A DNA stretch of 32,328 bases from Verrucomicrobiales bacterium (GTDB lineage: Bacteria > Verrucomicrobiota > Verrucomicrobiia > Limisphaerales > CAIMTB01): contig JADLFD010000089.1 of the NCBI GenBank assembly GCA_020845805.1, positions 1 to 32,328 on the forward strand, given 5' to 3'. Within the stretch, counting starts at the first letter, position 1, and every line of letters begins with the position of its first letter. Shown here piece after piece: positions 15,686-31,534 of the stretch. The notes beneath the pieces were generated by a model. The model searched no databases and was not told where the DNA came from. It saw nothing but the letters and a program-made list of their open reading frames with translations. The translations under genes and the position numbers were made by a program.

Positions 15686-17098
<1,413 letters not shown>

Positions 17099-17106
17099 CT
17101 TGGGGG

Positions 17107-18720
17107 TCAGGAGCGGGCGGGGGTCTTGAGGTGTCGGAGCTGGAAGAGGGCGCCGCGCGGTTGGTTGGCAAGGCATTCGATGTCCCAGCCGTGGGCGAGG
17201 ACGATCTGGTGCACCACGGCGAGGCCGAGGCCGGTGCCTTCGGCGCGCGTGGTGAAGTAGGGTTTGAAGATTTCGGCGCGATGCTCGGGTGGGACGCCGG
17301 GGCCGTCGTCGCGGATATCGAGGTGGAACTCGCCCGCTTCGACGGGGCTGGCGACGATCTCGATGGTGCCATCGCGGTGGGCGGCCTGGATGGCGTTGAG
17401 GAGGAGGTTGAAGAGCGCCTGGCGGAGCAATTGTTCGTCGGCGCGCAGGCTGGGGAGGCTGGGGGGGAGCACCAGACGGACCCCGTGTTCCTCGAGATCG
17501 GAAGCGAGGGCGCGGGCGACGTCCTGAGTGACGGCGGCGAGATCGACGGCGGCCCAGTGGACTTCGCGCGGGCGCGAGTAGTTGATGAACTCGTTGAGTT
17601 GCGCGGTGACGCGGTCGGTTTCGGCGACGATGGCGGTGGCGCGCACGTTGACCTCCGGCGAGCCGGCGGGCTGGCGCGAGATCAGCTGGGCGAGACCGCG
17701 GATGATGTTGAGCGGGTTGCGGGTTTCGTGGGCGAGTCCTGCGGCGGCGAGGTTCATCTCCTTGAGGCGCGCGTTGAGTTCGGCGGCGCGCGCGAGTCGG
17801 ACCTCGAGATCGGCGGAGTGGGCGAGGTTTCGCCAGGCCAGGCCGAGGCCGAGGGCGGAGACCCCGGCGAAGGCGCTGATCATCAGTCGCGCCCAGAGAT
17901 CCTGGGCGGTGGCTTCCTGGAGGGAGCGGGTGGAGAGCTGGAGGACGAAGCTATGGACGCCCTGCTTTTGGGCGAGCGACTTGAATTCCTGTTCGCTCAT
18001 CCAGAACGGGCGATTGAAGGGGAACCGGCCATCGCGCCGGCCGCGGCGCGGGCGGCTCGGGGCGTTGGTGGAGGCGGAGTCGGGGGCGTCGGGATCGGGC
18101 CGAAACCGCGCTTCGGGTGGCGGCGGCGGTCGTGGGTTGACCGTGTCGCCGGCGTCGGAGTCACGAGTGGGGTTCGGGTTTCGTGCGTCGTCGGGGGGTG
18201 GACCCAGGGGCGGGCCGGGTGGCGGACCGCCGGGGGGTCGGTTGGTGGGGAAGCCGGGCATGTCGCTGCGTGAGATCACGATGGTGGCCAGGCGTTCCTC
18301 GGGTTCGGAGGTGATGTTGGTGCCCAGATCGACGAGGTTCATGAGGGCCACGGTGTGGGCGGCCCAGTATTCGGCGCTGGGGACGAGGGCTTTGAGTTCC
18401 AGGTCGATGGGAGGACCGGCGGAGGCGACGACCTCCACCGAGTCATTGAGCAGCGCGATGGCGTTGAGTTCGCCGGGGCGGATGAGGGAGGCGAGCGCGG
18501 ATTCGATGCGTTCGCGGGAGATGAGGCCACCGAAACGGCGCTGAGAACGAATGACCAGGCCCAGGGTGCTGGAGATGTCTTTGGCGCGGGTGATGAGTTC
18601 AGCGCGGGCGGCGGCGCGGACGCGGCGGTGTTCGACGGACTGCCAGGCGACGACCAGGAGCCAGAGGAGGAGGAGTCCTCCGTAGACGAGGCGCGTCTTC
18701 TGGCTGGTCTGGGCGCTCAC
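17107..18720 (-). CDS. NtrB/ZraS-like sensor histidine kinase with Pro-rich periplasmic segment
   Basis: 537 residues from GTG18720. TM1 is at about 11-27. The extracytoplasmic region at about 28-275 carries an unusual Pro-rich, charged stretch (161-225, with GGPPPGPPLGPPPDD and NPRPPPPPEA) and ends before TM2 (about 278-297). His331 sits in the H-box GLAHETRNPLNIIRGL. The N-box is FNLLLNAIQAAH; DDGPGVP, FTTR and GTGLGL complete the ATPase. It is followed after 8 bp by its sigma-54 response regulator, so the pair is a standard NtrB/NtrC-type system. It lies 35 bp after the secretin barrel gene on the same strand, so it is probably cotranscribed with the secretion genes and may sense the state of the secretion apparatus or envelope. 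The signal is unknown. Confidence 0.93.
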   Translation of the reverse strand: MSAQTSQKTRLVYGGLLLLWLLVVAWQSVEHRRVRAAARAELITRAKDISSTLGLVIRSQRRFGGLISRERIESALASLIRPGELNAIALLNDSVEVVASAGPPIDLELKALVPSAEYWAAHTVALMNLVDLGTNITSEPEERLATIVISRSDMPGFPTNRPPGGPPPGPPLGPPPDDARNPNPTRDSDAGDTVNPRPPPPPEARFRPDPDAPDSASTNAPSRPRRGRRDGRFPFNRPFWMSEQEFKSLAQKQGVHSFVLQLSTRSLQEATAQDLWARLMISAFAGVSALGLGLAWRNLAHSADLEVRLARAAELNARLKEMNLAAAGLAHETRNPLNIIRGLAQLISRQPAGSPEVNVRATAIVAETDRVTAQLNEFINYSRPREVHWAAVDLAAVTQDVARALASDLEEHGVRLVLPPSLPSLRADEQLLRQALFNLLLNAIQAAHRDGTIEIVASPVEAGEFHLDIRDDGPGVPPEHRAEIFKPYFTTRAEGTGLGLAVVHQIVLAHGWDIECLANQPRGALFQLRHLKTPARS

Positions 18721-18755: not shown

Positions 18756-19910
18756 TTACTTGGAGGAGGAGCGGCGTTTCCGTCGGGATTCCTCGCGCGT
18801 GGGCACGGTTTGCTTTTTGGGCAGGTCCTGGAGGAAGCGGTCGAGTTCCTCGTCGGAGAAAGCCTGGGGCACGAGTTCCTGGTGAGCGCGTTCGCGCGCG
18901 GTCATGGCCGAGAGTTGGGACGGCGCCTTGACGATGTGCGGGGTGAGGAAGATGAGCAATTCGGTTTTGGTATCCCCGCGTTCCTTGCGTTTGAAGAGCG
19001 TGCCCAGGAGGGGGATGTCGCCGAGGCCGGGGATTTTGCTGTCGGTTTCGGTGCGGCTGTCGGACATCAGGCCGCCGATGACGACGGTTTGTCCGTCGGG
19101 CGTGACCACCACCGTGTCGGCGGAGCGCAGGTTGATGACGGGGGCATCGACGTCGGGACCGATGGGCACGGTTTGTTCGGAGAGATTGGAGATCTCGGGG
19201 GACACGATCATCTCCACCATGCCTTCGGTGGTGATGAAGGGGGTGACGCGCAGGATGATGCCGACGCTCTGGTAGGTGACCGTGTTGATCTGATTGTTCA
19301 GGTTGTCGTAGCGGACGTTGGTGATGAGCGGGACCTGCTGACCGACGGTGATGGTGGCCTGCTGGTTATTGCGGGCGAGCACGGAGGGTCGGGAAAGGAT
19401 CTCGGATTTGCCGGCCTCGGCGATGGCGCGGAGCGTGGCTTGGAAATCGGTGCCGAGGATCTGGTAGATGCCGGCGCCGGGCGCGGTGGGGACGACTCCC
19501 TGAGGGTTCATGCCGAAGATCTGGCTGACCCCGCCGGTGGTGGAGTTGCCCATGTTCTTCTGGTACGAGCCTTCGATGCCGAGGTCGATGCCCTTGCGAT
19601 AGGTGACCTCCAGGAAGACCACCTTGATCAGCACCTGGGGCGCCGGGCGGTCGAGATTGGTGACCACCTGGCTGATGTAGGAGGCCGTCTCCTCGTCGGC
19701 AACGACGATGAGCTTACGCGTCTCCTGGTCATAGGTGATCGTGGCGCCCCCGATTTCGGTGGCGGACGGATAGGAGGCGGTGCCTGTGCCCGCGGTGCGC
19801 GCCCGGGCGCCGGTGGTGACCTGGCCGGGTGCGGAGGCGGGGAGGAGTCCGAGAAGGGCCAGGATCAGGGGGATCCAGGCACTCCGGGAGCGGCGAAGGA
19901 GGGAGTTCAT
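18756..19910 (-). CDS. gspD: Secretin barrel protein (C-terminal part of GspD), separately exported
   Basis: 384 residues. Its own signal peptide is at about 1-29 (AWIPLILALLGLLPASA). A linker follows, then the second half of a KH-like N-domain at about 55-88 (ATITYDQETRKLIVVADEET to VVTNLD). The secretin core runs from about 90 to 328 (PQVLIKVVFLEVTY, EILSRPSVLARNNQ, VGIILRVTPFI, the signature TVVIGGLMSD, KIPGLGDIPLLGTLF, LLIFLTPHI). A basic tail ends the chain. A complete GspD of about 650 residues would carry four N-domains before this core; here they sit in the preceding gene. The signal peptide argues against a simple frameshift. It should form the outer-membrane pore of the T2SS. No pilotin gene is nearby. 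Confidence 0.93.
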   Translation of the reverse strand: MNSLLRRSRSAWIPLILALLGLLPASAPGQVTTGARARTAGTGTASYPSATEIGGATITYDQETRKLIVVADEETASYISQVVTNLDRPAPQVLIKVVFLEVTYRKGIDLGIEGSYQKNMGNSTTGGVSQIFGMNPQGVVPTAPGAGIYQILGTDFQATLRAIAEAGKSEILSRPSVLARNNQQATITVGQQVPLITNVRYDNLNNQINTVTYQSVGIILRVTPFITTEGMVEMIVSPEISNLSEQTVPIGPDVDAPVINLRSADTVVVTPDGQTVVIGGLMSDSRTETDSKIPGLGDIPLLGTLFKRKERGDTKTELLIFLTPHIVKAPSQLSAMTARERAHQELVPQAFSDEELDRFLQDLPKKQTVPTREESRRKRRSSSK

Positions 19911-19969
19911 GAGTGGGGATGAGGTGGGGGAAAGAAGCTCGAGCTCAGTATGGGGCGCGGCGCGGCCGA

Positions 19970-21709
19970 TCAGTTGCCACCGAAGCCACCGCCTCCGCCG
20001 CCGGTGCCGAAGCCATTCCCGGTGCCGCCGGTCTGATTGCGGTTTTGGGTTTGGCGGTTGTTGAGCTGGTTGGCGTTTTGCCGTTGCGAGTTCTGGGTGT
20101 TGCGACCCGCGGTGGTGCTCTGGTTGGGGAATAGATTCTGCAGCACTTCCTGCACCGCCTGCGGATCGGAGTTTTCGACGGAGTACACGAACACCTTCTG
20201 TTTGCGCGCGGGGTCGGAGTCGAGTTGTTCGAGCATGCGCGCGATCTGTTCCATGAGATCACGGGCGGCACTGACGACGATGGAGCGCGTGCGGAGGTCG
20301 GGGACCGCGACGACTTCGTTCTGCTTTTGCGACCGGGCACTTTGATCGGCGCTGCCGTTGCGATTGGCTCCCGTGCCAGCGGCGCCGCCGCCGCGGCCGA
20401 AGGGACCGGCTCCGCCAAAGGCGCCGCCGAAGCGGAGCTGGCCGCCCTGGGAGGAAGACTGCTGACGGGTGGTCGAGGAGAAGAGTCCAGTGAGCAGGTC
20501 GGCGGTCTCCTGCGGATCGGCGTACTTCAGGCGGAAGACACGTAGCTCAGTGATTTCCTCCACGTTGGTATCCACCTGCGTGACCACGCCTTCGATGATG
20601 ACCATTTGTTCCTCGGGCGCGTTGACCACGACGGAATTGCTGCGTTCATCGGCGACGGCGACCACCTTGGTGGTGGGGGCACGGCCCCCGGAGGCGGAGG
20701 CATCGGTGGCAGCGCCACCGCCGCCGGGGCCGCCGGGGCCACCGGGGAAGCCGCCCCGGAGTGCGTTGAAGAAGCGGCCCTGGCCGCCGGTGTTGTTGCC
20801 GGTCCGGGACGTGTCGGTGGAAGGGAAGAGATCGCGGATCATGGTGGAGACCGCCTTGGCGTCGGCGTAGCGCAGTGGGAAGACGCGCACGGACGAGACG
20901 CTGGCGATGGCGGTGTCGAGCGCTTGAACGATCTCGGCCATGCGCCGGATGTTGGTCTGGGTGTCGGTGACGACGAGGGCGTTGCCCCCTTCGTTGGCGG
21001 TGAGCGTGGCGGTGTCCGGCAGGAGCGGTTGGAGGTCCTTGGTCAGTTGGACCGCGTTGATATAGCGCACGGGAATGATCTGCGTGACGATTTCGTCGGA
21101 GCGCGGGATCTCGGCGGGTTTATTGCCGGAGATCACCGGGATATCGCGCTTCTTGGCATCGCTGCGACTGACGATGGTGAGGGTGCGTTCGTTGCGGATG
21201 GCGGCGTAGCCGTTCTTGTTCAGGACCGAATTGAGGAGGGTGATGGCCTCCTCTTTCGAGAGGGGTTGATTGCTCCAGACGTCGACCTTTCCGCGGATCT
21301 CGGTCTCCAGATTGATGATGAAGCCCGCGGCATCACTCAGGTAGTCGAGGACCATCTCCAGCGGCACGCCGCGGAAGTTGAAGCGCAGTCCGGGTTCGCC
21401 GTTGGCGGCGCGTTCGACGGGCGGTGCGGGGAGAGTGGAACGGCGCTCGGTGCGCGAGGGGCGCGCTCGTTCCTCGCCGCGCTGGCGGAAGGGCTCGCGG
21501 TCGGCCGTGGCGGGTTCGTCGGCGGGCACGGGGGTGCCGGGGGTCGGCGCCGGTTCGGCATCGACGGCGGGGCTGGGCTCCGCCGGGACCGGCTGCGTCA
21601 GGGCGGGCGTCTCCTGCGGGGGGACTTCGGGGGCGGGATCGGCGGCGAGGGCTTGTCCGCAGAGGAGCAAGCCGCCGAGCCAGCGGGAAAGGGCGCGCAT
21701 GGGCTTCAT
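19970..21709 (-). CDS. Secretin N-domain protein (N-terminal part of GspD)
   Basis: 579 residues from ATG21709, which overlaps the gspC-like stop (ATGA). Signal peptide is about 1-22, then a Pro/Ala-rich linker to about 105. N0 is at about 107-185 (RFNFRGVPLEMVLDYLSD...). KH-like N-domains follow at about 208-266 (IIPVRYINAVQLTKDL), 274-382 (VFPLRYADAKAVSTMI) and 389-498 (VFRLKYADPQETADLL), two of them with Gly-rich loops. A fourth begins at 504 (KVFVYSVENSDPQAVQEVL) but only its first half is present before an Asn/Gln/Gly-rich tail (531-579). There is no secretin barrel. The matching second half is in the next gene. Likely role is the periplasmic vestibule contacting GspC and substrates. Confidence 0.92.
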   Translation of the reverse strand: MKPMRALSRWLGGLLLCGQALAADPAPEVPPQETPALTQPVPAEPSPAVDAEPAPTPGTPVPADEPATADREPFRQRGEERARPSRTERRSTLPAPPVERAANGEPGLRFNFRGVPLEMVLDYLSDAAGFIINLETEIRGKVDVWSNQPLSKEEAITLLNSVLNKNGYAAIRNERTLTIVSRSDAKKRDIPVISGNKPAEIPRSDEIVTQIIPVRYINAVQLTKDLQPLLPDTATLTANEGGNALVVTDTQTNIRRMAEIVQALDTAIASVSSVRVFPLRYADAKAVSTMIRDLFPSTDTSRTGNNTGGQGRFFNALRGGFPGGPGGPGGGGAATDASASGGRAPTTKVVAVADERSNSVVVNAPEEQMVIIEGVVTQVDTNVEEITELRVFRLKYADPQETADLLTGLFSSTTRQQSSSQGGQLRFGGAFGGAGPFGRGGGAAGTGANRNGSADQSARSQKQNEVVAVPDLRTRSIVVSAARDLMEQIARMLEQLDSDPARKQKVFVYSVENSDPQAVQEVLQNLFPNQSTTAGRNTQNSQRQNANQLNNRQTQNRNQTGGTGNGFGTGGGGGGFGGN

Positions 21710-22608
21710 TTCAGTTCCTTTTCGCGTTGCTGCATGAGTCGTTTCAAAACGTCGCTGACCTCGCCGCCGCCGCTGCTGGAGCTGGCGGAGGAGGCGTCGG
21801 AGGAAGGGGTCGTGGTGGTGGGAGCGGGGGTCTCTCCTGATCCCGAGCCCGAGCCGGCGGCGGGGGGAGCGGCGATGTCGGACAGTTGCCATTCACCGTC
21901 GTCTTCCCGCCGTAGGTGGCGGCTGACCATGAGATCGAGGGTCTGGTCGCCCGCGCGGAGCCGGATGCCGTTCTGGGAAATTTCGTCGATGGTATGCCCG
22001 GCGATGGTGCCGCCGGTCTGGAGCACTTTGCGGAACTCGCTGCTGGAGCCGTCGAAGAAGGCGAAGCGGCCTTTTGCATAGGCCATCGTGCCGACCAGGG
22101 AGATGGACTCCACTTTGGGGGCGCGACGGGTTTCGCGCGGCCGACCAGAGCCTGGACCGCGTGCCGTGCGGGTCGGATTGAAGATGTTGCGTTCCGAGAT
22201 GATGCGGAACGAGGGATAGTCGGCGCGCGCGCCGGGGGACGCGTTGGTGGGCGTGACAGTGGCGGGAGCGTCGGAAGTGCTATCGAGAGCGGAGGCGACC
22301 GAGTTGGTGTCGATGGACGACTCACTCGAAAGGGCCGTGTCTGGCGCCGCGTTGGCGGTTGAGTTCGTGCGGGTGGTGGACGAGTTGGGGACGTCATTCG
22401 TCCTGGCCGGGGCGGGGACCTCGATGGCGTTGGCGCGGTTGGTTTCCGCGGCGTCGGCGGCGCGAGCCAGTGGGGTCAGAGCCAGGGCCAGGGCCAGAGT
22501 GAGGGCAGAGGCGACGGACAGCGCGAGGGCGGTGGCGCGCAGGGGGCGGGGACCGTCGAGGTGAACTCGGCGGGGGCCGAACGGTGGGTGGAGAGTCGCG
22601 TCGCTCAT
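21706..22608 (-). CDS. GspC-like inner-membrane protein (HR domain)
   Basis: 300 residues from ATG22608. A single N-terminal membrane helix (about 25-48, ALALSVASALTLALALALTPLA) is followed by a long Thr/Ser/Asn/Ala-rich linker. An HR-like domain spans about 140-235: FRIISERNIFNPTR, SISLVGTMAYAKGRFAFFDG, GGTIAGHTIDEISQNGIRL and LDLMVSRHLRR. The tail is low in complexity. GspC (and PilP) HR domains bind the secretin N0 domain, linking inner and outer membrane parts; here the next gene encodes exactly the N0-bearing protein. Both ends overlap neighbours by ATGA. No C-terminal PDZ is seen. The HR match is by motif only, so gspC is likely rather than certain. Confidence 0.78.
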   Translation of the reverse strand: MSDATLHPPFGPRRVHLDGPRPLRATALALSVASALTLALALALTPLARAADAAETNRANAIEVPAPARTNDVPNSSTTRTNSTANAAPDTALSSESSIDTNSVASALDSTSDAPATVTPTNASPGARADYPSFRIISERNIFNPTRTARGPGSGRPRETRRAPKVESISLVGTMAYAKGRFAFFDGSSSEFRKVLQTGGTIAGHTIDEISQNGIRLRAGDQTLDLMVSRHLRREDDGEWQLSDIAAPPAAGSGSGSGETPAPTTTTPSSDASSASSSSGGGEVSDVLKRLMQQREKELK

Positions 22609-23162
22609 GACTTGGGCGGGGCGGAAGGGGTCGCGGGTCCGGGCGCGAGGACGAGACCACTGACCTGGATGCCGAGAGTGAGTTGCTGACCCTGGGGATC
22701 GCGCGTGCCGAGTTCGAGGGATTCGACGCGCACGGCGAGTGGGTCCTGTTCGAGGAGGTAGAGGAATCGCGTCAAGCTGGAGAGCGAGCCGAAGGCATCG
22801 GTTCGGCATTCGATGGTCACCTGGTCCTTGGTGTCGCGTTTCCATTGCGGTCGGATGGAGGCGATCCCGACGCCGCTTTCCTGGGACCAGCGGTCGAAAG
22901 CTTTGAGAAGGGTATTCTCGGCCGCGGAAGGTTCGGCGGGAAGGGTGTTGGTCCTCATGGTCCCCCAGCGTTCGCGCAACGTGTGATCGCGTTGGAGGAG
23001 GGCTTCGCCTTGGGCGACCTGCAGGCGCAGCGACGCGAGGCGTTGGGTGCGGGCTTTCCACGAACGGGCGAGCGGGCCGACGAGGGCGCGATCGCCGACG
23101 AGGAGGATGAGGGCGGTGGCGGCGAGGACCACGAGGGTCCGTTGGCGGTTCTGCGGGTTCAT
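22605..23162 (-). CDS. gspM: GspM/PilO-like assembly platform protein
   Basis: 185 residues from ATG23162. One N-terminal membrane helix (LVVLAATALILLVGDRALV, about 9-27) is followed by a helical region (ARTQRLASLRLQVAQGEALL) and a ferredoxin-like fold with SGVGIASIRPQW, SLTRFLYLLEQDPLAVRVESLEL and LTLGIQVSGLVL. This is the architecture of GspM and PilO, which pair with GspL/PilN in the inner membrane. It overlaps gspL at its start and the gspC-like gene at its end by four bases each. Sequence similarity across this family is low, so identification rests on architecture and position. Confidence 0.85.
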   Translation of the reverse strand: MNPQNRQRTLVVLAATALILLVGDRALVGPLARSWKARTQRLASLRLQVAQGEALLQRDHTLRERWGTMRTNTLPAEPSAAENTLLKAFDRWSQESGVGIASIRPQWKRDTKDQVTIECRTDAFGSLSSLTRFLYLLEQDPLAVRVESLELGTRDPQGQQLTLGIQVSGLVLAPGPATPSAPPKS

Positions 23163-24595
23163 GGCGCGGGCGGGTCGCCCCATTGGAAGTGGAAGGTGAA
23201 CTCGAGCGGGGTTTTGCCGCGCATTTGTTCGACCTTGAGATCGGAGACCTGGGAAGAGGCGCGGAGTTTATCGAGGGCCTGGAGGAGGGCCTGGCGGTCG
23301 CGAGCGACGCCGCTGCACACGATGGTGGCGGGAGGGCGCAGCTCGAAGGATTTGGCGGAGAGCGAATTGTCCTCGGGAAAGGCCTCGGTGAGGCGGCGGA
23401 GGATGCTGAGCGATTTTTGTGACTCGTCGAACCAGGGCCGGAAGCGTCGAATGTTCTGCTGGATCTGGTCGAGTTGTTGGGCCTGGGTGGCGATGGCGTT
23501 CCAGCGGTTGTTCCAGTGCCAGAGTTGGATTTGCTGGATGAGAAAGGCGGCGATGACCAGGGCGGCGGCGGCGGCGACCGGCACCCCGAACCAGCCCAGG
23601 CGGCGGTTGGCGAAGCGCGCGCGGAGGCGTTGCCACGCGCTGAGGCGCGGGGGGAGGAACTCGATGGGGGTGGCGGTCCCGGTGAGATGGCGCAGGCCGA
23701 GGCTGAGGGCGGGGGTCACCGCGGTGCCGGTGGGGACTTTGACGGGAAACTCTGCGGGGGCGTAGTCCCGGACCGACTCGACGCGCAGGTTCCACGCCTC
23801 GGCCTTGCGGTGGAGGAGGTCGGCGATGGCCCGGGCGGGCTCGTCGCGTCCGTACACGCGGGCGCGACGGATGGCATCGCGCAATTCCGGCGGCAGTTGG
23901 CCGAGCGTGATGCGGAGGTCGCGCAGGAACGTCTCGGGGTCGTGGCCGAGGGGGGCGTCGGGCGAGGCGTCGCCGACTTCGATCGTGCGCAGGAGCGCGA
24001 TGCCGCCGCCGTGGGTGACCTGGAGGGCGACATGGGAACCTTCGTGCAGGATGGTGAGCGCGCTTTCCTGGCGGGCGTCGGCCGGCGGGTGCAGGGCGGC
24101 GGTGGCGAGCGAGAGTGTGAGCGGGCGGAGACGGGCGGCGGCGAGCACTGCCTCGAGGCGGTGCACGGACTCGCGGGGCACGGCGAGCAGTTCGGCGAAG
24201 GAGGCGCCGGCGGCCGTTTGGAAGAGGGACTGGGCGACCAGGAGGTCCTCGGGCGGATAGGGAAACCCGCGCTCGGCCTCGAGTTGAAGGAAGCTCTCGA
24301 GGTCCGCGCCCTGCAGCGGCGGGAGCGCGACCTGGAGGGAGAGCACCCACGACGACGGCAGGCATACGGTACAGGCGCGTTCGCGCACCCCGGCGGTGTC
24401 GAGGAGCTTGCGCAGATCCCGGCCGACGAGCTCGGGCTCGGGTCCGAGCAGGGGAAGGGCGAGGTCCTGCGCGAAGGCGTGGCGCAGGGTGACCGAACCG
24501 TTGCTGCGACGGATTTCGATGCCTTCCACCCGGCTGGGCCCGAAGGCGAGGGCCAGGACGGAGGTGGCGGACTTGGGTTTGCGATGGGTGGTCAT
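23159..24595 (-). CDS. gspL: GspL-like protein (PilM-like actin fold fused to PilN-like region)
   Basis: 478 residues from ATG24595. The cytoplasmic actin-like part (about 10-300) includes VLALAFGPSRVEGIEI, CLPSSWVLSLQVALPP, LESFLQLEAERGFPY and a later nucleotide-fold-like stretch. One membrane helix at about 335-358 (WFGVPVAAAAALVIAAFLI) precedes a periplasmic coiled segment and a ferredoxin-like domain. In T2SS GspL binds the ATPase GspE through its cytoplasmic part and GspM through its periplasmic part. The frame is open a little upstream to 24649, but ATG24595 overlaps the gspK stop by ATGA and is preferred. The long actin-like part resembles PilM more than proteobacterial GspL; this is an inference from motifs. 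Confidence 0.88.
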   Translation of the reverse strand: MTTHRKPKSATSVLALAFGPSRVEGIEIRRSNGSVTLRHAFAQDLALPLLGPEPELVGRDLRKLLDTAGVRERACTVCLPSSWVLSLQVALPPLQGADLESFLQLEAERGFPYPPEDLLVAQSLFQTAAGASFAELLAVPRESVHRLEAVLAAARLRPLTLSLATAALHPPADARQESALTILHEGSHVALQVTHGGGIALLRTIEVGDASPDAPLGHDPETFLRDLRITLGQLPPELRDAIRRARVYGRDEPARAIADLLHRKAEAWNLRVESVRDYAPAEFPVKVPTGTAVTPALSLGLRHLTGTATPIEFLPPRLSAWQRLRARFANRRLGWFGVPVAAAAALVIAAFLIQQIQLWHWNNRWNAIATQAQQLDQIQQNIRRFRPWFDESQKSLSILRRLTEAFPEDNSLSAKSFELRPPATIVCSGVARDRQALLQALDKLRASSQVSDLKVEQMRGKTPLEFTFHFQWGDPPAP

Positions 24596-25986
24596 CGGTT
24601 TCGCGCGGCGAGAAGGAACGAACGGCGGACTTCGCGTCCGAGGCTCCATCCGAAATCAGTGAGATCACGGCGGGCGACGAGGCGGGGGGCGGCGCCGGAG
24701 AGGTCGCAGATGAATCGGACGCGGCGGTATCCGCGGCCGTGGCGACCGACGGCGGCGACATCGGCGACAAACTGCGTGGTGCGGCTGGAGAGGAAAGGTC
24801 CGGCCTGCGTGGCCTGGGATTCGTCGAGCACCTCGGTGACCCAGGCCAGGGAAGGTGGGGCGGTGCTGGCGTTGGAGCGACGGCGGGCGACCAGATTGGG
24901 AGCGAGGTCGGGACCGATGCCCGGGATACAGGCGAGCACCGCTTCGCTGGCGGTGTTGACGTTGACCGTGGCGTTGGTGGCGGGGGCGCCGGCGGTGACC
25001 GAGCCCTCGATCTGGGCGAACTCGTCGGGAGTGAATCCGGCGCGCAGGTAGAACTGGAGCGGGCTCGCGAGCTGGGCGGTATTGGTACCGAGCTGGCGCA
25101 GCAGGGCGTTGGCGCGGTCGGCTCCGAATTTCTCCTGGAGCAGCGTGGCGAGCTGCTGACGGTCGCCGGTGGTGACGTTGATCAGGGCGTTGCCTTCGTC
25201 ATCCACGGTGGGCGGTCGAGTCCAGAGCGTGAGATACTCGATGAGGCCTGGATCCAGATGTCCGTCGCGGTTGTCGACCGGGGGTGACTGATCGCCATCG
25301 TTCTCGTTGGAGTCGAGGACGCCATTGAGGTTGGTATCCTCGCCGTAGAGGATTTCGGTGGTCATGCCGCGGACGAGACGAAGTTCCTCGAGGGATTCGA
25401 AGGGCGCGTTTTTGCAGCGGTAGGGTTGGTTCAGACGCTGGTAGGTCTCGTCCTCGGCACCCCCGTCTCCGGCGTCCGAATCCTCATCACGCCAGTCAAC
25501 GATGGCGGCGGCGAGCTCGGCGGTCATGCGGGGGAGCCATTGGAGCATCTCCGCAGTGGCGCTGTTGAGTGGGAGGCGTGCGCCTTCATCGGCGAGGCTG
25601 AATACGGGTTCTTCCTGGGCGGTGTCGGTCTCCGGGCGGCCGATGAACCAGAACTGAGCTTCGCCAATGGGCACCGCTTCAGCGCGATAGGACCAGGAAT
25701 CGGGCAGGCGCCCGGGAATTTCGAGATCGGCCAGCAGGTTGGTCACGTACTTCGCGGCGCCGAGGATGGCTTGGTCGGCCTGGACCGCGGCGACGCGGTT
25801 CTCGGAGGCGCGGAGTTCCATGGACATCGAGTTCGCGAAGTAGAGCGCGAGGCTGACGAGTCCGAAGGTCACCCAGAGCACGATGATGAGCACCGACCCC
25901 CGTTGGGCGCGGGGCGAGGTGGGCGCGGGAGGGATCCCGGCAGGGGAACCGGTGGCGCGAGGAAACGCTGGAGGGGGCAGCGTCAT
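24592..25986 (-). CDS. gspK: GspK minor pseudopilin with EF-hand-like insert
   Basis: 464 residues from ATG25986. The prepilin leader ends at Gly30 before SVLIIVLWVTFGLVSLALYF; Glu5 of the mature chain is absent, as is usual for GspK. The large domain has PLNSATAEMLQWLP, IVDWRDEDSD, YRCKNAPFESLEELRLVRG and the helix-hairpin-helix-like VNVNTASEAVLACIPGIGPDLA. Residues 217-228 form a canonical EF-hand loop (D, N, N, G, L, D and E at positions 1, 3, 5, 6, 8, 9, 12), continuing with SNENDGD. GspK caps the pseudopilus with GspI and GspJ, and the family is known to bind calcium. ATGA overlaps join it to gspJ and gspL. Confidence 0.93.
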   Translation of the reverse strand: MTLPPPAFPRATGSPAGIPPAPTSPRAQRGSVLIIVLWVTFGLVSLALYFANSMSMELRASENRVAAVQADQAILGAAKYVTNLLADLEIPGRLPDSWSYRAEAVPIGEAQFWFIGRPETDTAQEEPVFSLADEGARLPLNSATAEMLQWLPRMTAELAAAIVDWRDEDSDAGDGGAEDETYQRLNQPYRCKNAPFESLEELRLVRGMTTEILYGEDTNLNGVLDSNENDGDQSPPVDNRDGHLDPGLIEYLTLWTRPPTVDDEGNALINVTTGDRQQLATLLQEKFGADRANALLRQLGTNTAQLASPLQFYLRAGFTPDEFAQIEGSVTAGAPATNATVNVNTASEAVLACIPGIGPDLAPNLVARRRSNASTAPPSLAWVTEVLDESQATQAGPFLSSRTTQFVADVAAVGRHGRGYRRVRFICDLSGAAPRLVARRDLTDFGWSLGREVRRSFLLAARNR

Positions 25987-26855
25987 AGGCTGGAACCTGG
26001 GCCACCGGGCGGGGGACCTCCCGCCGCACCGCCACCCGGATTTCCCCCGGAGCCCGAGCCCGAGCCGCCGGTGTTTCCACTGGGAGAACCTCCGGAGGAA
26101 CCGCCGGTGGACGAGGCGGACGTGCTGGCGGTGTCGGTGGTGTTGGTCGAGCCGTCGAGGAGGATGGGGACCACCGTCGTGATGACGGGAGGGAGCGGGC
26201 CACGGGACGCGTTCGGTTGCGCGAGGGCCTCCGCGTCGCTGAGGCCGGACCCGGCCTCGAGCTGCAGTTCGACCTTGATCGCCGCGGGCAGCGGGGTGGC
26301 GGCGGTGGCGGAGTCCCAGGTGGTCTGCCATTGGGTGCCGTCGTGGTAGAGGAGCGTGAGGGATTCGACCCCGTCGAGCACGGGTTCGTAGGCCGGCGAT
26401 TCGGTGACCGTGGCGAGCAGGTTGCGGGTCACGGCGCGGACGAGTTGCTTGCCGTGGGCGCGGTTGGTGGAAGGCAGGACGAGATAGGCGACTTTTTGGA
26501 CCTCAGGCCACGGGGTGAGATCGTCGAGCGTGGCGCTGGCGGTGAAGAGATCGGGGGTGACCTGACCGGGGAGGAGGGAGTTGGTGGGCACGGTGGCGAA
26601 GGCGCCCGACATCGTGGTGCCGGGGGGCACCAGACTGGCGAGGTCGCGGGTGACCAAGTTGAGGGCGCGCTGGACGGGGAGCGCGCTTTCGATCAGGCGG
26701 GTGGTGCGTTCGCGCAGGCGGAGAGCGGAGAAGAAGACGCCGTTGATGGCCACGAGCACCACGGCGCCCACGGTGATGGCCAGGAGGACCTCCAACAGCG
26801 TGAAGCCCGCCGCGCGGGGCGCGGGGTTCGACATGCTGGAGGAGGGCCGGTTCAT
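25983..26855 (-). CDS. gspJ: GspJ minor pseudopilin with Ser/Gly-rich tail
   Basis: 290 residues from ATG26855. Leader ends at Gly17 before FTLLEVLLAITVGAVVLVAI, with Glu5 of the mature chain conserved for assembly. The body has VQRALNLVTRDLASLVPPG and VLDGVESLTLLYHDG, and WPEVQKVAYLV lies between them. The C-terminal 55 or so residues are Ser/Thr/Gly/Pro-rich low-complexity sequence absent from typical GspJ. An upstream extension of the frame to 27071 lies inside gspI and is rejected. Belongs to the pseudopilus tip complex with GspI and GspK. Start is 23 bp after gspI; the end overlaps gspK by ATGA. Confidence 0.9.
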   Translation of the reverse strand: MNRPSSSMSNPAPRAAGFTLLEVLLAITVGAVVLVAINGVFFSALRLRERTTRLIESALPVQRALNLVTRDLASLVPPGTTMSGAFATVPTNSLLPGQVTPDLFTASATLDDLTPWPEVQKVAYLVLPSTNRAHGKQLVRAVTRNLLATVTESPAYEPVLDGVESLTLLYHDGTQWQTTWDSATAATPLPAAIKVELQLEAGSGLSDAEALAQPNASRGPLPPVITTVVPILLDGSTNTTDTASTSASSTGGSSGGSPSGNTGGSGSGSGGNPGGGAAGGPPPGGPGSSL

Positions 26856-26878
26856 GGATGGGCAACGTGGAGGCGGAG

Positions 26879-27334
26879 TCAGAGTCCGGCCAGGGTGGAA
26901 ACGCGGAGGTCGTACTCGCGGCCCTGGACCGTGTAATCGACGACCACGGTGACCAGGCGCATGGAGTCGATGGGCCACCATTCGGTGCGGACCGACCAGC
27001 GATACTCGGATTCCCCTTCGAGGACTGTGCCGCGGGTGGGGGCGGCGAGGCCCTGGCTGGCGGCGCGCCATTCGTTGAGGACGTTTCCAGCGACGCGCGC
27101 GGCGACGGTTTTACGTTGTCCGAGTTGTCCCGCCAGGCTGGCGACGCGAAGGGCTTCGAGAGCGACCGGGATCACGATGCCGAGAAGCGCGAGTGCGGCG
27201 AGGACTTCGGCCAGGGTGAAGCCCGCGGTGCGAGCGCGCCGGACGGTTCGGCCGCCGGCGACGAAGCCGGCCGGGCTCACGCGATGAGCGTGGGCCGCGG
27301 GAGCTTCGGGGCGAGGGTGGCCGGGAAAGTACAT
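26879..27334 (-). CDS. gspI: GspI minor pseudopilin
   Basis: 151 residues from ATG27334. Prepilin cleavage site is Gly38 before FTLAEVLAALALLGIVIPVAL. A 38-residue leader is long; GTG27280 would give a 20-residue leader and is a realistic alternative start. The mature part has RVAGNVLNEWRAASQGL and EYRWSVRTEWW, matching the GspI pattern of a short pseudopilin with a conserved A-x-N-x-L-x-E-W region. Position between gspH and gspJ agrees. Spacing is 20 bp from gspH and 23 bp to gspJ. It nucleates the pseudopilus tip in known systems. Confidence 0.9.
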   Translation of the reverse strand: MYFPGHPRPEAPAAHAHRVSPAGFVAGGRTVRRARTAGFTLAEVLAALALLGIVIPVALEALRVASLAGQLGQRKTVAARVAGNVLNEWRAASQGLAAPTRGTVLEGESEYRWSVRTEWWPIDSMRLVTVVVDYTVQGREYDLRVSTLAGL

Positions 27335-27354: not shown

Positions 27355-27990
27355 TTAGTAGGTGGCCCGGAGGACGGGTCGTTCCGTGCGCAGTTCGTAG
27401 GCCAGGCGATTGGTGGTTTGCACCAGCCAGAGGGCCTCCGTCTCGCCCCGGCGCAATTCAATCGAGTCCGGGCTGCGCGCATCGAGGTAGCCATCCGGGA
27501 GCAGTCGGATGGCGGGGAGCCCGGTCAGCGGGCGTTGGTCGAGTGTGGAACGTCGTGCGGTGAGCGTGGCGGTGCCGGGAGTGCTGAGCGACGAGAGCGT
27601 GCCGAAGACGCGGGAGACGGGCGGTTCGGTGATCCGGATTTCGAGGGTGTCCTCGATTTCGAACTCCAGCGCGCGCGTGTCCTCGTCCAGGTCGGCGGCA
27701 TACCCGGCGGCCATTTGGAGGCCATAGCGGCGGGCGGTGGGATCGAACCACAGGACCATGGGCACACCCTCGGTGACGGCGCGATTCTGGCCATAGCGCG
27801 CGAGGGACTGGAGTCGCCGCGCTTCGGAATCGAGGGCGCGCCCGCCGAAGAAGCGGCGGAGCGTGGGCAGGGCGGCGCCGAACCCGATGACGAGCAGCGC
27901 CATGACGAGGATGAGCTCGAGGAGCGTGAACGCGGCGGGCGATCGCGAGATCGCGGACTTAGCGGGTGAGTTGGAAGTTGGTGATGTCAT
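27355..27990 (-). CDS. gspH: GspH minor pseudopilin (Ala at -1)
   Basis: 211 residues from ATG27990, which lies 32 bp inside gspG. The N-terminal methylation motif is FTLLELILVMALLVIGFGAALP after Ala20, so the -1 residue is Ala, not the usual Gly. The following region, SEARRLQSLARYGQNRAVTEGVPMVLWFD, is the typical GspH/FimT pattern, and the rest is beta-rich. An ATG at 28017 is a further alternative start. GspH is thought to join the tip complex to the GspG shaft. The gene sits between the major pseudopilin and gspI, as in other T2SS loci. Confidence 0.88.
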   Translation of the reverse strand: MTSPTSNSPAKSAISRSPAAFTLLELILVMALLVIGFGAALPTLRRFFGGRALDSEARRLQSLARYGQNRAVTEGVPMVLWFDPTARRYGLQMAAGYAADLDEDTRALEFEIEDTLEIRITEPPVSRVFGTLSSLSTPGTATLTARRSTLDQRPLTGLPAIRLLPDGYLDARSPDSIELRRGETEALWLVQTTNRLAYELRTERPVLRATY

Positions 27991-28402
27991 CTTCCGTGCC
28001 GTCCTGTCCGTCCGCACCGGCGGAGGAGAGGTCGTAGGACGTGGTGTTGCGGCGGCCCGGGCATTCGTAGACGTAAGGGCGGTTCCAGGGGTCGGCGGGG
28101 ATATCCTTCAGGTAGGGACCCTTCCAGGTTTGGGAGTCGCGCGGCTGCTGGACGAGGTTGAGGAGACCGTCCTTGCCCTTCGGGTAGGAACCGTTGTCGA
28201 CCTCGTAGGCGTCGAGCGCGGTGGCGAACGACGCGAGCTGGGTTTTGGCGGCGGTGACGCGTGCCTGCTCGGTGCGGCCGGCGAACTTGGGCACGACGAT
28301 GGCGGCCAGGATGCCGAGGATGACGAGCACGAGGAGCAGTTCGATCAGCGTGAAGGCGAGGGAGGCAGGGCGTCGCCGGCGGGAAGGAGCGGGGATTCTC
28401 AT
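27959..28402 (-). CDS. gspG: GspG major pseudopilin (Ala at -1)
   Basis: 147 residues. A basic leader (SRRRRP) ends at Ala16, followed by FTLIELLLVLVILGILAAIV, with Glu5 conserved. The mature domain has the GspG pattern TQLASFATALDAYEVDNGSYP, GPYLKDIPADPWNRPYVY and a calcium-site loop SSAGADGQDGTEDDITNF near the C-terminus. Gly at -1 is nearly universal in this class; Ala is seen here and in gspH. ATG28402 is 22 bp after gspF. This is the main building block of the pseudopilus. No second gspG copy and no prepilin peptidase gene lie in the window. Confidence 0.95.
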   Translation of the reverse strand: MRIPAPSRRRRPASLAFTLIELLLVLVILGILAAIVVPKFAGRTEQARVTAAKTQLASFATALDAYEVDNGSYPKGKDGLLNLVQQPRDSQTWKGPYLKDIPADPWNRPYVYECPGRRNTTSYDLSSAGADGQDGTEDDITNFQLTR

Positions 28403-28424: not shown

Positions 28425-29768
28425 TTACTTGATGTAGTCCTGGAGCGTGAAGATGGGGATGACCATGCCGATGAAGATGGTGCCGATCATGCCGGCGATG
28501 AGGAACAGCATGAGCGGTTCGGCCAGGGCCACGGCGGTGCGCAATTGGCGATCAAGGTCGCCCTCGGTGAGGTCGGCGATGCGCACGAGTTCGCGGTCGA
28601 GCCGCGCGCTTTCCTCGGCGACGGCGATCATCTCCAGCGTGGCTCCGGAGAACAGCGCGGGACACTCGGCCAAGCTGGGCCCAAGGGCCTTCCCCTCTTT
28701 GACGCGGTCGATGGAGTTGGAGACCGCGTCGACGAGAATCTGATTTCCCAGCGAGCGGCGCGCGACATTGAGGCCGTTGATCAGGGGCACACTCGCGCCG
28801 AGCAGTGTGCCGAGCATGCGGCAGAAGCGCGCCATGGCGAACTGAGCCACCAGCGGTCCGACCACGGGCAGGCGCAGTATGACGCCCTCCCACGTGCGAC
28901 GGCCGGCAGGCGAAAGGAACCAGGTGCGGGCCAGCAGCAGGCCGACACCCAGTGCGAGCGCGACGAAGAGGCCGTAGGAACGGATCACCTCGCTCGCGGA
29001 AACGATGAGCTGCGTGAGCAGGGGAAGCCTCGCGCCGAAGCCGGCGAAGATGGTCTGGAATTTCGGGATGAAGAAGACCAGGAGGAAGACCAGCACTCCC
29101 AGCGCGAGGGTTAGCAGGATGACCGGGTAAAGCATCGCGGCGAGCACCTTGCCGCGGATCTCCTTCTCGCGCGCCTGGAAGTCGGCGATCTGGGCGAGCA
29201 CCACATCCAGGAAGCCACCGGCTTCGCCGGCCTCGACCATGGCCACGTAAACGCGTGGGAAAGTCTCGGGCGACTTGGCCATGGCGTCGGCCAGGGACAT
29301 GCCGTCGACGACACGGTCGTGGATTTCCTTCCACTTGGCGCGCGCCTGGGGTGCGCCGGCTTCCTTGTGCAGGATTACGAGCGCGCGGCTGAGCGGCACG
29401 CCAGCGGCCAGCAGGCTGGACAGCAGGCGCGTGAAATTCTCCAGCATGCGCGCCGTGATGCGCGGACTGCCGCCCAGGGAAAGGAGGGGGGACGACGCGG
29501 CCTCGGCGCGCGGCGCGGCGGGGGCCGTGGCGGAGCCAGGCGAATGGTGCTTGCCGTTGGGGACGGGCGAGGAGGCGGCGACGGGTGCCGGGTGCGAAGC
29601 GCGGGCGGCACGCGGGGTGCGCGCAGCGGCGTTCTGTTCGACGAGGCTGATCGGGCGCAGCCGTTGTTCGTCGATCCGACGCAAAGCTTCCTGGCGTCCG
29701 CCGGCTTCGATCTGCCCTTCGGCGATCGACCCGTCGGCCTGGAGTGCGCGGTATTGGAACGTGGCCAT
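28425..29768 (-). CDS. gspF: GspF inner-membrane platform protein
   Basis: 447 residues. The N-terminal segment (MATFQYRALQADGSIAEGQIEA) is followed by an Ala/Pro-rich linker at about 47-100. Two T2SSF repeats follow, at about 107-230 (FTRLLSSLLAAGVPLSRALVIL, VYVAMVEAGEAGGFLDVVL) and 310-435 (FCRMLGTLLGASVPLINGL, MIAVAEESARLDREL). Membrane helices lie near 210-235, 265-285 and 415-437 (LFLIAGMIGTIFIGMVIPIF). GspF couples the ATPase GspE to pseudopilus assembly. ATG29768 is 11 bp after gspE. The linker is longer than in typical GspF. Confidence 0.95.
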   Translation of the reverse strand: MATFQYRALQADGSIAEGQIEAGGRQEALRRIDEQRLRPISLVEQNAAARTPRAARASHPAPVAASSPVPNGKHHSPGSATAPAAPRAEAASSPLLSLGGSPRITARMLENFTRLLSSLLAAGVPLSRALVILHKEAGAPQARAKWKEIHDRVVDGMSLADAMAKSPETFPRVYVAMVEAGEAGGFLDVVLAQIADFQAREKEIRGKVLAAMLYPVILLTLALGVLVFLLVFFIPKFQTIFAGFGARLPLLTQLIVSASEVIRSYGLFVALALGVGLLLARTWFLSPAGRRTWEGVILRLPVVGPLVAQFAMARFCRMLGTLLGASVPLINGLNVARRSLGNQILVDAVSNSIDRVKEGKALGPSLAECPALFSGATLEMIAVAEESARLDRELVRIADLTEGDLDRQLRTAVALAEPLMLFLIAGMIGTIFIGMVIPIFTLQDYIK

Positions 29769-29779
29769 GGGCTGGCGGG

Positions 29780-31534
29780 TCAGTGGGCGGGCGTGGCGTT
29801 GGCCAGCATCTCGGCGGCGCTGTCACCGGCCTCGGTGCCCTGGGATTGTTCCTTGGTCACGCGAAGGACTTCCTCCGGTGTGGTGACGCCGGTGCGGACC
29901 AGTCGCCATCCGTCTTCGGCCAGGGAGCGCATGCCCCCCTTGCGTGCTGCCTCACGCAGGATATCGCTGGAGACATTCTTGAGGATGAGCCGCCGAAGCT
30001 CGTTGTCGGTGTCCATCCACTCGAAGACCGCGCGGCGTCCGTGGTAGCCGGTCTGCCGGCAGGCGCGGCAACCCACCGCGCGGTAGATCTTCGCCTCGCG
30101 CGGAATGCCGAGCTGCGCCTTGAACGCCTGGGCCGGCGTCGAGGTGTCCTCCTGCTTGCACTGCGGGCAGAGCACGCGCACGAGACGTTGGGCGAGCACG
30201 GCTTCGAGGGAGGACGCGACGAGATAGGGTTCGACCCCCATGTCGACGAGGCGGGTGAGTGCGCCGGGGGCGTCGTTGGTGTGCAGTGTGGAGAAGACGA
30301 GATGGCCGGTCAGGGATGCCTGCACCGCAATCTGCGCGGTTTCCTGATCGCGGATTTCGCCGACGAGCACGACGTCCGGATCATGCCGCAGGATGGAGCG
30401 GAGCCCGCGCGCGAAGGTGAGCCCAGCTTTCTCGGAGACCTGGATTTGATTGATGCCCTTGAGTTGGTACTCGATGGGGTCTTCGATGGTGATGATCTTA
30501 CGGACGGCGTCGTTGATCTCGTTGAGGGCGGTATAGAGCGTGGAGGTCTTGCCGCTGCCGGTGGGGCCGGTGACGAGGATGATGCCGTGGGGCAGTGCGA
30601 GCACCCGGCGGAAGGAGCGCAACTCGCGTTCGTCCATCCCGAGATCCTCCATCCCGCGCAGAGTGGAGCTCTGGCGAAGAAGGCGCAGCACCACGGCTTC
30701 GCCGTGCAGCATGGGGATGACCGAGACGCGGATATCGACCTCGTGGGCATCGACGCGAATCTTGATGCGGCCGTCCTGGGGCAACCGTTTCTCGGCGATG
30801 TTGAGATGGCTCAGGATCTTGACGCGCGAGACGATGGCGGGCTGGAACCGCTTGATCTGAGGCGGGACCGGGATTTCCTGGAGCACGCCGTCGATGCGGT
30901 AGCGGATGCGGAGTTCGTCCTCGAACGGTTCGAGGTGAATGTCGGAGGCGCGGAGTTCGATGGCGTCGCGCAGGACCTGATTGACGAAGCGGATGATCGA
31001 CGCGTCTTCGGCCGCATTGTCGAGGTTGGTGTCGTCGTCCTTGGAATCGTCCACCACCTCGAAGGGCGTCTCCTCCTCGAGCGTGTTGAGGGTGTCGGCC
31101 CCCACGCCGAGATGCTTCTTCATCTCGCGCAGGATGGCCTCGGTGGGGGCGAGCACCGGTTTGAGGCGGAGGCCGGTGACCGTCCGCAGCGTGTCGAGGC
31201 CCTGAGTGGCGAAGAGGCGGCTGGTGGCGACTTCGACGCATCCGTTGGTGCGACGCAGGGGCAGCAGTTCGTCGCGCAGGAGGAGACGGGCGGGGAACAG
31301 CGAGAGGACCTGCTTGTCGGGTTCCACGCCGTCGAGCGCGGTGAATTCGAGGTCGTATTCGCGGGCGAGCCAGCGGAGCACGTCGTCTTCCGAAGCGGGC
31401 GTCACCTCACCGCCCCGGAGACCGGGGCTTCCGCCCGATAGCGCGTCCGCGTCCCCAGGCGACAGTTGTCGCGCGGCGACCATGCGTTGCAGCAGGTCGG
31501 TCGGGGTCGAGGTGACGTTCTCGGGGTTGGCCAT
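29780..31534 (-). CDS. gspE: GspE secretion ATPase
   Basis: 584 residues. The N-terminal GspE-N region (about 1-150) precedes the hexameric ATPase: ASDIHLEPF, Walker A GPTGSGKTSTLY (about 322-333), ITIEDPIEYQL (Asp box), LRSILRHDPDVVLVGEIRD (Walker B), and TGHLVFSTLHTNDA (His box). A zinc-binding tetracysteine (CPQCK and CRACR, about residues 455-490) is present, as in GspE and PilB. It powers pseudopilus extension. ATG31534 is used; a 93-bp space separates it from the small secreted-protein gene upstream. It starts the conserved order E-F-G-H-I-J-K-L-M-C-D. PilB of a type IV pilus is the alternative, but GspK and GspC-like genes favour T2SS. Confidence 0.95.
   Translation of the reverse strand: MANPENVTSTPTDLLQRMVAARQLSPGDADALSGGSPGLRGGEVTPASEDDVLRWLAREYDLEFTALDGVEPDKQVLSLFPARLLLRDELLPLRRTNGCVEVATSRLFATQGLDTLRTVTGLRLKPVLAPTEAILREMKKHLGVGADTLNTLEEETPFEVVDDSKDDDTNLDNAAEDASIIRFVNQVLRDAIELRASDIHLEPFEDELRIRYRIDGVLQEIPVPPQIKRFQPAIVSRVKILSHLNIAEKRLPQDGRIKIRVDAHEVDIRVSVIPMLHGEAVVLRLLRQSSTLRGMEDLGMDERELRSFRRVLALPHGIILVTGPTGSGKTSTLYTALNEINDAVRKIITIEDPIEYQLKGINQIQVSEKAGLTFARGLRSILRHDPDVVLVGEIRDQETAQIAVQASLTGHLVFSTLHTNDAPGALTRLVDMGVEPYLVASSLEAVLAQRLVRVLCPQCKQEDTSTPAQAFKAQLGIPREAKIYRAVGCRACRQTGYHGRRAVFEWMDTDNELRRLILKNVSSDILREAARKGGMRSLAEDGWRLVRTGVTTPEEVLRVTKEQSQGTEAGDSAAEMLANATPAH

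Follow-up and report, generated by a model that had tools for sequence, protein, structure and literature searches.

The window analysed here (the whole stretch of DNA, 32,328 nucleotides in length) carries on its - strand a T2SS operon with the genes E, F, G, H, I, J, K, L, M, a GspC-like gene, D1 and D2. The secretin of this operon is encoded by the last two of these, D1 and D2, both of which are - strand ORFs; they are spaced by 59 nt and lie in different reading frames. The genes of the operon are:

29780..31534, - strand: GspE ATPase (profile match)
28425..29768, - strand: GspF (profile match)
27959..28402, - strand: GspG major pseudopilin (TIGR01710, above cut-off)
27355..28017, - strand: GspH-like pseudopilin (profile match)
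26879..27334, - strand: GspI (Pfam T2SSI)
25983..27071, - strand: ORF with GspJ (Pfam T2SSJ)
24592..26331, - strand: ORF with GspK (Pfam T2SSK); the upstream stretch of the open frame is probably non-coding
23159..24649, - strand: GspL / PilM-like protein (profile match)
22605..23183, - strand: GspM (profile match)
21706..22602, - strand: GspC-like protein, directly upstream of D1 (NCBIfam GspC_delta, E=3.8e-6, under its cut-off)
19970..21709, - strand: D1, 579 aa, the exported periplasmic chain; after the signal peptide come N0, N1, two more N-domains and the opening half of the final N-domain
18756..19910, - strand: D2, 384 aa, the exported pore chain; its signal peptide is followed by a linker, the second half-domain and the secretin domain

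Beyond D2 lie genes for a sensor kinase and an NtrC-type response regulator (window 15686-18720, - strand). Downstream of D2 in relatives, a sensor kinase is present in 27 and an NtrC-type response regulator in 22 of 35 cases, an arrangement that suggests two-component control of the T2SS of this operon.

The TIGR02517 model of GspD is divided between the two chains, with D1 covering its positions 1-301 and D2 its positions 278-600. As neither chain alone reaches the single-chain cut-off of 351.35 bits (222.8 bits for D1 and 238.2 bits for D2), the pair is a two-chain GspD variant and not an ordinary GspD. Between them the two chains display the features of GspD, namely N0 with Secretin_N repeats, a pore domain, and location in a T2SS operon with a GspC-like neighbor. 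Pfam models detect N0 (PF21305) and three Secretin_N (PF03958) stretches in D1, in which the Pfam Secretin domain was not found; D2 contains the Secretin domain (PF00263, E=4e-49) and only the second half of a Secretin_N domain (31-69 of 69). The pore residues of D2 are invariant in the alignment of the split clade. A motif of the form PKAFxExELxxFLxxxPxK is also kept in this clade after the pore domain, at the C-terminus of D2 (window about 18756-18870), and is perhaps a pilotin- or partner-binding tail.

The N-termini of both D1 and D2 are basic, hydrophobic and Ala-rich, as in Sec signal peptides. A simple hydrophobicity rule called a signal peptide at the D2 start in 174 of 176 loci, as against 74 of 172 interior controls, and at the D1 start in 153 of 168 loci. 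These results bear out the initial annotation in its description of a secretin spread over two consecutive genes, each with its own signal peptide, with no barrel in the first and no complete N-domain in the second. The relevant elements within the two genes are:

21644..21709, - strand: signal peptide of D1, MKPMRALSRWLGGLLLCGQALA (end approximate)
20123..20197, - strand: half-domain A (beta1-alpha1) of the last N-domain, in the end part of D1, KVFVYSVENSDPQAVQEVLQNLFPN
19973..20122, - strand: Asn/Gln/Gly-rich tail of D1, holding a short conserved motif [NSTQ]xLxxR, here NQLNNR
19824..19910, - strand: signal peptide of D2, MNSLLRRSRSAWIPLILALLGLLPASAPG (end approximate)
19650..19748, - strand: half-domain B (beta2-beta3-alpha2) of the last N-domain, in D2, GATITYDQETRKLIVVADEETASYISQVVTNLD
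18927..19424, - strand: Pfam Secretin (pore) domain of D2

Strong relatives of D2 were recovered from 188 of 320 genomes of the order, and a scan of named genomes yielded 80 D2 loci, from Limisphaerales, Opitutae, Spartobacteria, Kiritimatiellota, Omnitrophota, Hydrogenedentota, Sumerlaeota/BRC1 and unclassified bacteria. The initial annotation had proposed a search of related genomes for the same split and for fused versions: D2 is a separate gene in all 176 loci collected, and no fused D1-D2 was found among them. Some contigs are counted twice in this set because they were reached via two collections, leaving 144 distinct half-domain sequences. D1 lies upstream of D2 in all but one of the 176 loci, the exception being at a contig end. 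Long open frames that looked like D1-D2 fusions in several loci were chance open frames, and one locus flagged as fused (L156) proved to be split on reading by eye. Of the 35 relatives with enough flanking sequence, nearly all show the gene order G-H-I-K-L-M-C-D1-D2, the departures being GspC and GspM locally exchanged in L066 and a GspG match out of place in L083; a GspC-like gene stands directly or nearly directly upstream of D1 in 35/35. Two loci (L048 and L101) have similar inserts of ~805 nt between D1 and D2, with no evident gene.

Such constancy (176/176 D2 loci split) rules out assembly error or chance as the source of the split. It is also conceivable that D1 and D2 yield one protein in practice by means of ribosomal frameshifting or stop readthrough, or that the stop is a sequencing error, and in 28 of 79 named loci the frames are indeed consecutive with a single stop. 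However, the relative frames of D1 and D2 are random across the loci (62/61/52 over the three possible relations, with a median gap of 41 nt), in 174/176 loci D2 opens with a start codon and then a signal peptide, and the same arrangement is shared by about 144 distinct sequences of several phyla, which already refutes the sequencing-error version. We accordingly regard a single product here as extremely improbable, and as a general cause of the split all three processes are ruled out by the random frames and the conservation.

Elsewhere in the same genome, contig C255 encodes a single-chain secretin of 1101 aa that scores above the GspD cut-off. The initial annotation had named a full-length gspD elsewhere, with the pair left unused, as an observation that would refute it; the first part is met, while disuse of the pair is not supported. 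If the pair were a decaying copy, the C255 protein, a single-chain GspD-type secretin above the TIGR02517 cut-off, could be the functional one. Against this, the C255 gene is part of another T2SS operon, which has E, F, G and further components of its own, and so does not make the pair redundant, the pair itself sits within a complete E-to-D2 operon kept across families, and the pore residues of D2 are invariant; decay of the pair is thus very unlikely. Although expression has not been seen, we argue from the conservation of the operon and of the sequences that the pair is in use. The same genome (840 contigs) has at least eight nearly full-length matches to GspE/PilB-type ATPases, which represent a large set of T2SS/T4P-like systems. 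At the similarity level searched it holds a single D1 and a single D2, which in relatives are adjacent within one operon; the earlier idea that the two parts are possibly exchangeable or separately dosed thus finds no support.

When compared individually with the Pfam Secretin_N profile, the halves score 13.8 bits (profile 1-28) and 16.5 bits (32-66), whereas the two joined by hand score 30.5 bits over profile positions 1-64 and pass the family cut-off of 28.2. Measured by this profile, the D1 half and the D2 half are exactly complementary. As a profile built from both halves together aligns with E. coli GspD (5wq7) at 247-265 and 286-319, immediately upstream of the pore domain, the split domain is identified by alignment as the counterpart of the canonical GspD N3, the last N-domain, and the predicted break site is the alpha1-beta2 loop of N3. 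The earlier placement of the break in the final N-domain thus stands, with the correction that this domain is the canonical N3 counterpart and that D1 has one N-domain beyond textbook GspD. In PulD, the loop 288-303 was not buildable in the cryo-EM map (PMC6882859), and the D2 profile match on the PulD chain begins at position 307; hence, if the loop numbering of that paper and the numbering of the chain are close, as we assume, the cut appears to lie in a loop that seems flexible in single-chain GspD. On the D1 side, the [NSTQ]xLxxR motif is present in 140 of 174 tails as against 18 in shuffles, the tail being otherwise of low complexity, and one may speculate that the motif aids docking.

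The half-domains are about as well conserved as complete domains: mean entropy is 1.58 for the D1 half and 1.49 for the D2 half, with two intact N-domains of the same protein at 1.33-1.49. Because their conservation is this close to that of intact N-domains, the halves are not, as far as sequence can tell, decaying remnants. The structural models of read-through chains, in which the two halves fold as one domain with a single sheet, point in the same direction. In an AlphaFold2 model of the read-through chain of L084, built with the stop read as Gly, block-mean pLDDT is about 83-96 in both halves and the elements follow in the expected order, namely beta-alpha, a long disordered linker, and then beta-beta-alpha. 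A minimal read-through from another phylum (L124, Omnitrophota) gave a model whose only strands are beta1, beta2 and beta3, with beta1 marked as paired by DSSP. Since only these three strands exist in the model, beta1 is inferred from the DSSP definition to pair across the junction with the other half. Superposition of this model on the crystal structure of an XcpQ N-domain fragment (4ec5) covers 166 columns at 2.7 A, with a probability of 0.99 and a non-significant E of 0.38. The pTM values are modest (0.56 and 0.46) because the linkers are disordered. All these targets were read-through single chains, in which the linker places the halves close by construction, and no multimer prediction was made. 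Inter-chain covariation between the D1 half and the D2 half exceeds that of scrambled pairs, with enrichment between beta1 and beta3 that was matched in 1/300 scrambles. This beta1-beta3 block was picked after the map had been seen, and the intact-domain controls gave little signal; moreover, the plmDCA and MI maps of the intact N-domains disagree (Spearman 0.03-0.05), for which reason the covariation map was dropped as proof of contacts. On balance, non-covalent pairing of the D1 and D2 half-domains is likely but not proven, being predicted without any experiment. The initial proposal that the halves complement each other to one N-domain agrees with the joined Secretin_N score, the conservation and the read-through models; the physical pairing in it remains unproven.

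The absence of a physical demonstration leaves room for the D1 half to be a mere leftover of fission, with the D2 pore carrying a truncated N-domain, D1 being held elsewhere, for instance by GspC, and the halves remaining unpaired. That D2 contains a whole pore domain and its own signal peptide is compatible with such a situation. A leftover would not be expected to come close to intact N-domains in its conservation over several phyla, to terminate at a similar position in the loci inspected by eye, or to have its beta1 modelled as paired with the D2 half, and we consider this account quite unlikely. A further variant, which overlaps with the two-chain pairing, is a domain swap, in which the D1 half completes the D2 half of the neighboring protomer, or D1 chains partly pair among themselves, such that vestibule and pore interlock around the ring. 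The linkers between the halves are long enough to entertain this (102-154 residues, including the signal peptide, in the in-frame loci), ring oligomers permit it, and our data do not distinguish which protomer does the pairing. There is no direct evidence for such a swap and same-protomer pairing most simply reproduces the canonical N3 ring, making it a doubtful option, if one that cannot be set aside.

The explanation that we favor, and hold to be quite probable in the absence of any experiment or observed expression, is a two-chain GspD in which the two halves rebuild N3 between the separately exported D1 and D2. Sequence shows that a single secretin gene was split once, long ago, within the alpha1-beta2 loop of N3, that the downstream part has its own signal peptide, and that D1 and D2 are encoded in one operon as products with separate export signals. 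Once in the periplasm, the beta1-alpha1 unit at the end of D1 is inferred to dock onto the beta2-beta3-alpha2 unit at the start of D2, which would rebuild one KH-like ring-building domain and tie the N0-N1-N2 vestibule of D1 to the pore of D2 without a covalent bond. The D1 vestibule would in turn meet the GspC-like protein, with binding expected through N0. The former loop may be seen as surviving in its two ends, namely the long, Gly/Asn-rich D1 tail and the Gly-rich start of D2. It is also possible, if only tentatively so and on the whole improbable, that the secretin consists of two or three exported chains linked by nothing but half-domain complementation, with the periplasmic N-module (D1) assembling independently of the pore (D2), such that their subunit numbers can differ.

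In a tree of 115 secretin domains, the difference between fused and split forms amounts to a single change (96% SH-aLRT). The process of cutting seems to have gone further in some members of the clade: in L046, L078, L079, L200, L147 and L151 (and in L247, apparently the same contig as L147) D1 is itself divided into two genes. In the five three-chain loci that were read out, as well as in L161, every piece seen has a signal-peptide-like start; the contig of L161 stops upstream, with the second D1 piece present. In another candidate (L212) the D1 frameshift seems genuine, and this locus was left out of the three-chain count. The second break site in the three-chain forms is the homologous alpha1-beta2 loop of an earlier N-domain, and the twice-broken D1 would represent the same kind of event as the split of N3. 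As the three-chain form requires about four changes on the same tree, of which at least three are imposed by branches with good support, N-domains have probably been cut repeatedly in their predicted alpha1-beta2 loops. The occurrence of three exported chains in about four separate lineages is a new finding of this study.

D1/D2 resembles the single-chain GspDs (E. coli GspD 5wq7, PulD 6hcg and XcpQ 5wln) in the presence of N0, the N-domain repeats, the last N-domain by the pore, and the T2SS operon with a GspC-like gene upstream; it differs from them in consisting of two chains, each with a signal peptide, in the break in the N3 loop and in the extra N-domain. No account of a GspD split in a bacterial T2SS came out of the literature searches, most subscription journals being outside their coverage; those for a split GspD or a Verrucomicrobiota T2SS secretin returned only RhcC1/RhcC2, and the mitochondrial case was reached via secretin gene fission. 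The secretin of the rhizobial-type T3SS is encoded by rhcC1 and rhcC2, which lie apart, RhcC1 being an N-terminal T3SS secretin remnant and RhcC2 a later-acquired Tad secretin (PMC3459982, PMC3574062, PMC4500985). There too, the N-terminal and pore parts are separate proteins; however, those proteins have two origins, complete domains and distant genes, whereas D1 and D2 both derive from one GspD, are broken inside a domain and are encoded by adjacent genes. In the mitochondrial T2SS of some protists, GspD is divided among several proteins (GspD plus GspDN1-GspDN3), of which two correspond to halves of a Secretin_N domain; yeast two-hybrid data suggest that a GspD-GspDN1 interaction may occur, N0 and GspC are absent, and the halves could not be assigned to a particular domain (PMC8134430). 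The common element is the presence of half Secretin_N domains on separate proteins, with each half in D1/D2 being part of a larger chain. Unlike the mitochondrial system, D1/D2 is encoded in a bacterial operon, N0 and a GspC-like protein are both present, and the break can be assigned to N3.

Four proteins have the highest D2-profile scores (262-294 bits) of the single-chain secretins compared; they differ from D1/D2 in being one chain, with 5 to 33 Secretin_N domains ahead of the pore, and come from the same order:

L055, 9655-15042, - strand: many-N-domain single-chain secretin
L054, 7005-17945, - strand: many-N-domain single-chain secretin
L051, 26-2956: many-N-domain single-chain secretin
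L052, 3748-6042: many-N-domain single-chain secretin

L055 has 16 Secretin_N domains before one pore domain in 1795 aa and L054 has 33 in 3646 aa. Other genomes of the order contain open frames of about 3100-5155 aa with a D2-like pore at the end. Such proteins might form a very long periplasmic tube; a full T2SS operon was not found beside any of these four (L051, L052, L054, L055).

The structural and mechanistic papers that we examined take GspD to be one chain, with N-module and C-module as its parts. The existence of a multi-phylum clade with two or three chains suggests that a covalent bond between vestibule and pore is not needed, and points to a flexible loop within a ring-building domain as the site of several evolutionary cuts. 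As neither part meets the cut-off of the curated model, the split may explain GspD genes that are missed or mis-named in bacteria of this clade. The two-chain GspD also provides the half-domain proteins of the mitochondrial T2SS with a counterpart in bacteria. Finally, the way in which a 15-fold pore meets inner-membrane partners of other symmetry is under debate, as are 15:12 and C15:N12 arrangements (PMC10550240), and these natural split constructs make the subunit number of N-module versus pore directly testable; if D1 and D2 did assemble separately and in different subunit numbers, the mismatch in symmetry between 15-fold secretin pores and their inner-membrane partners would be resolved in a natural way.
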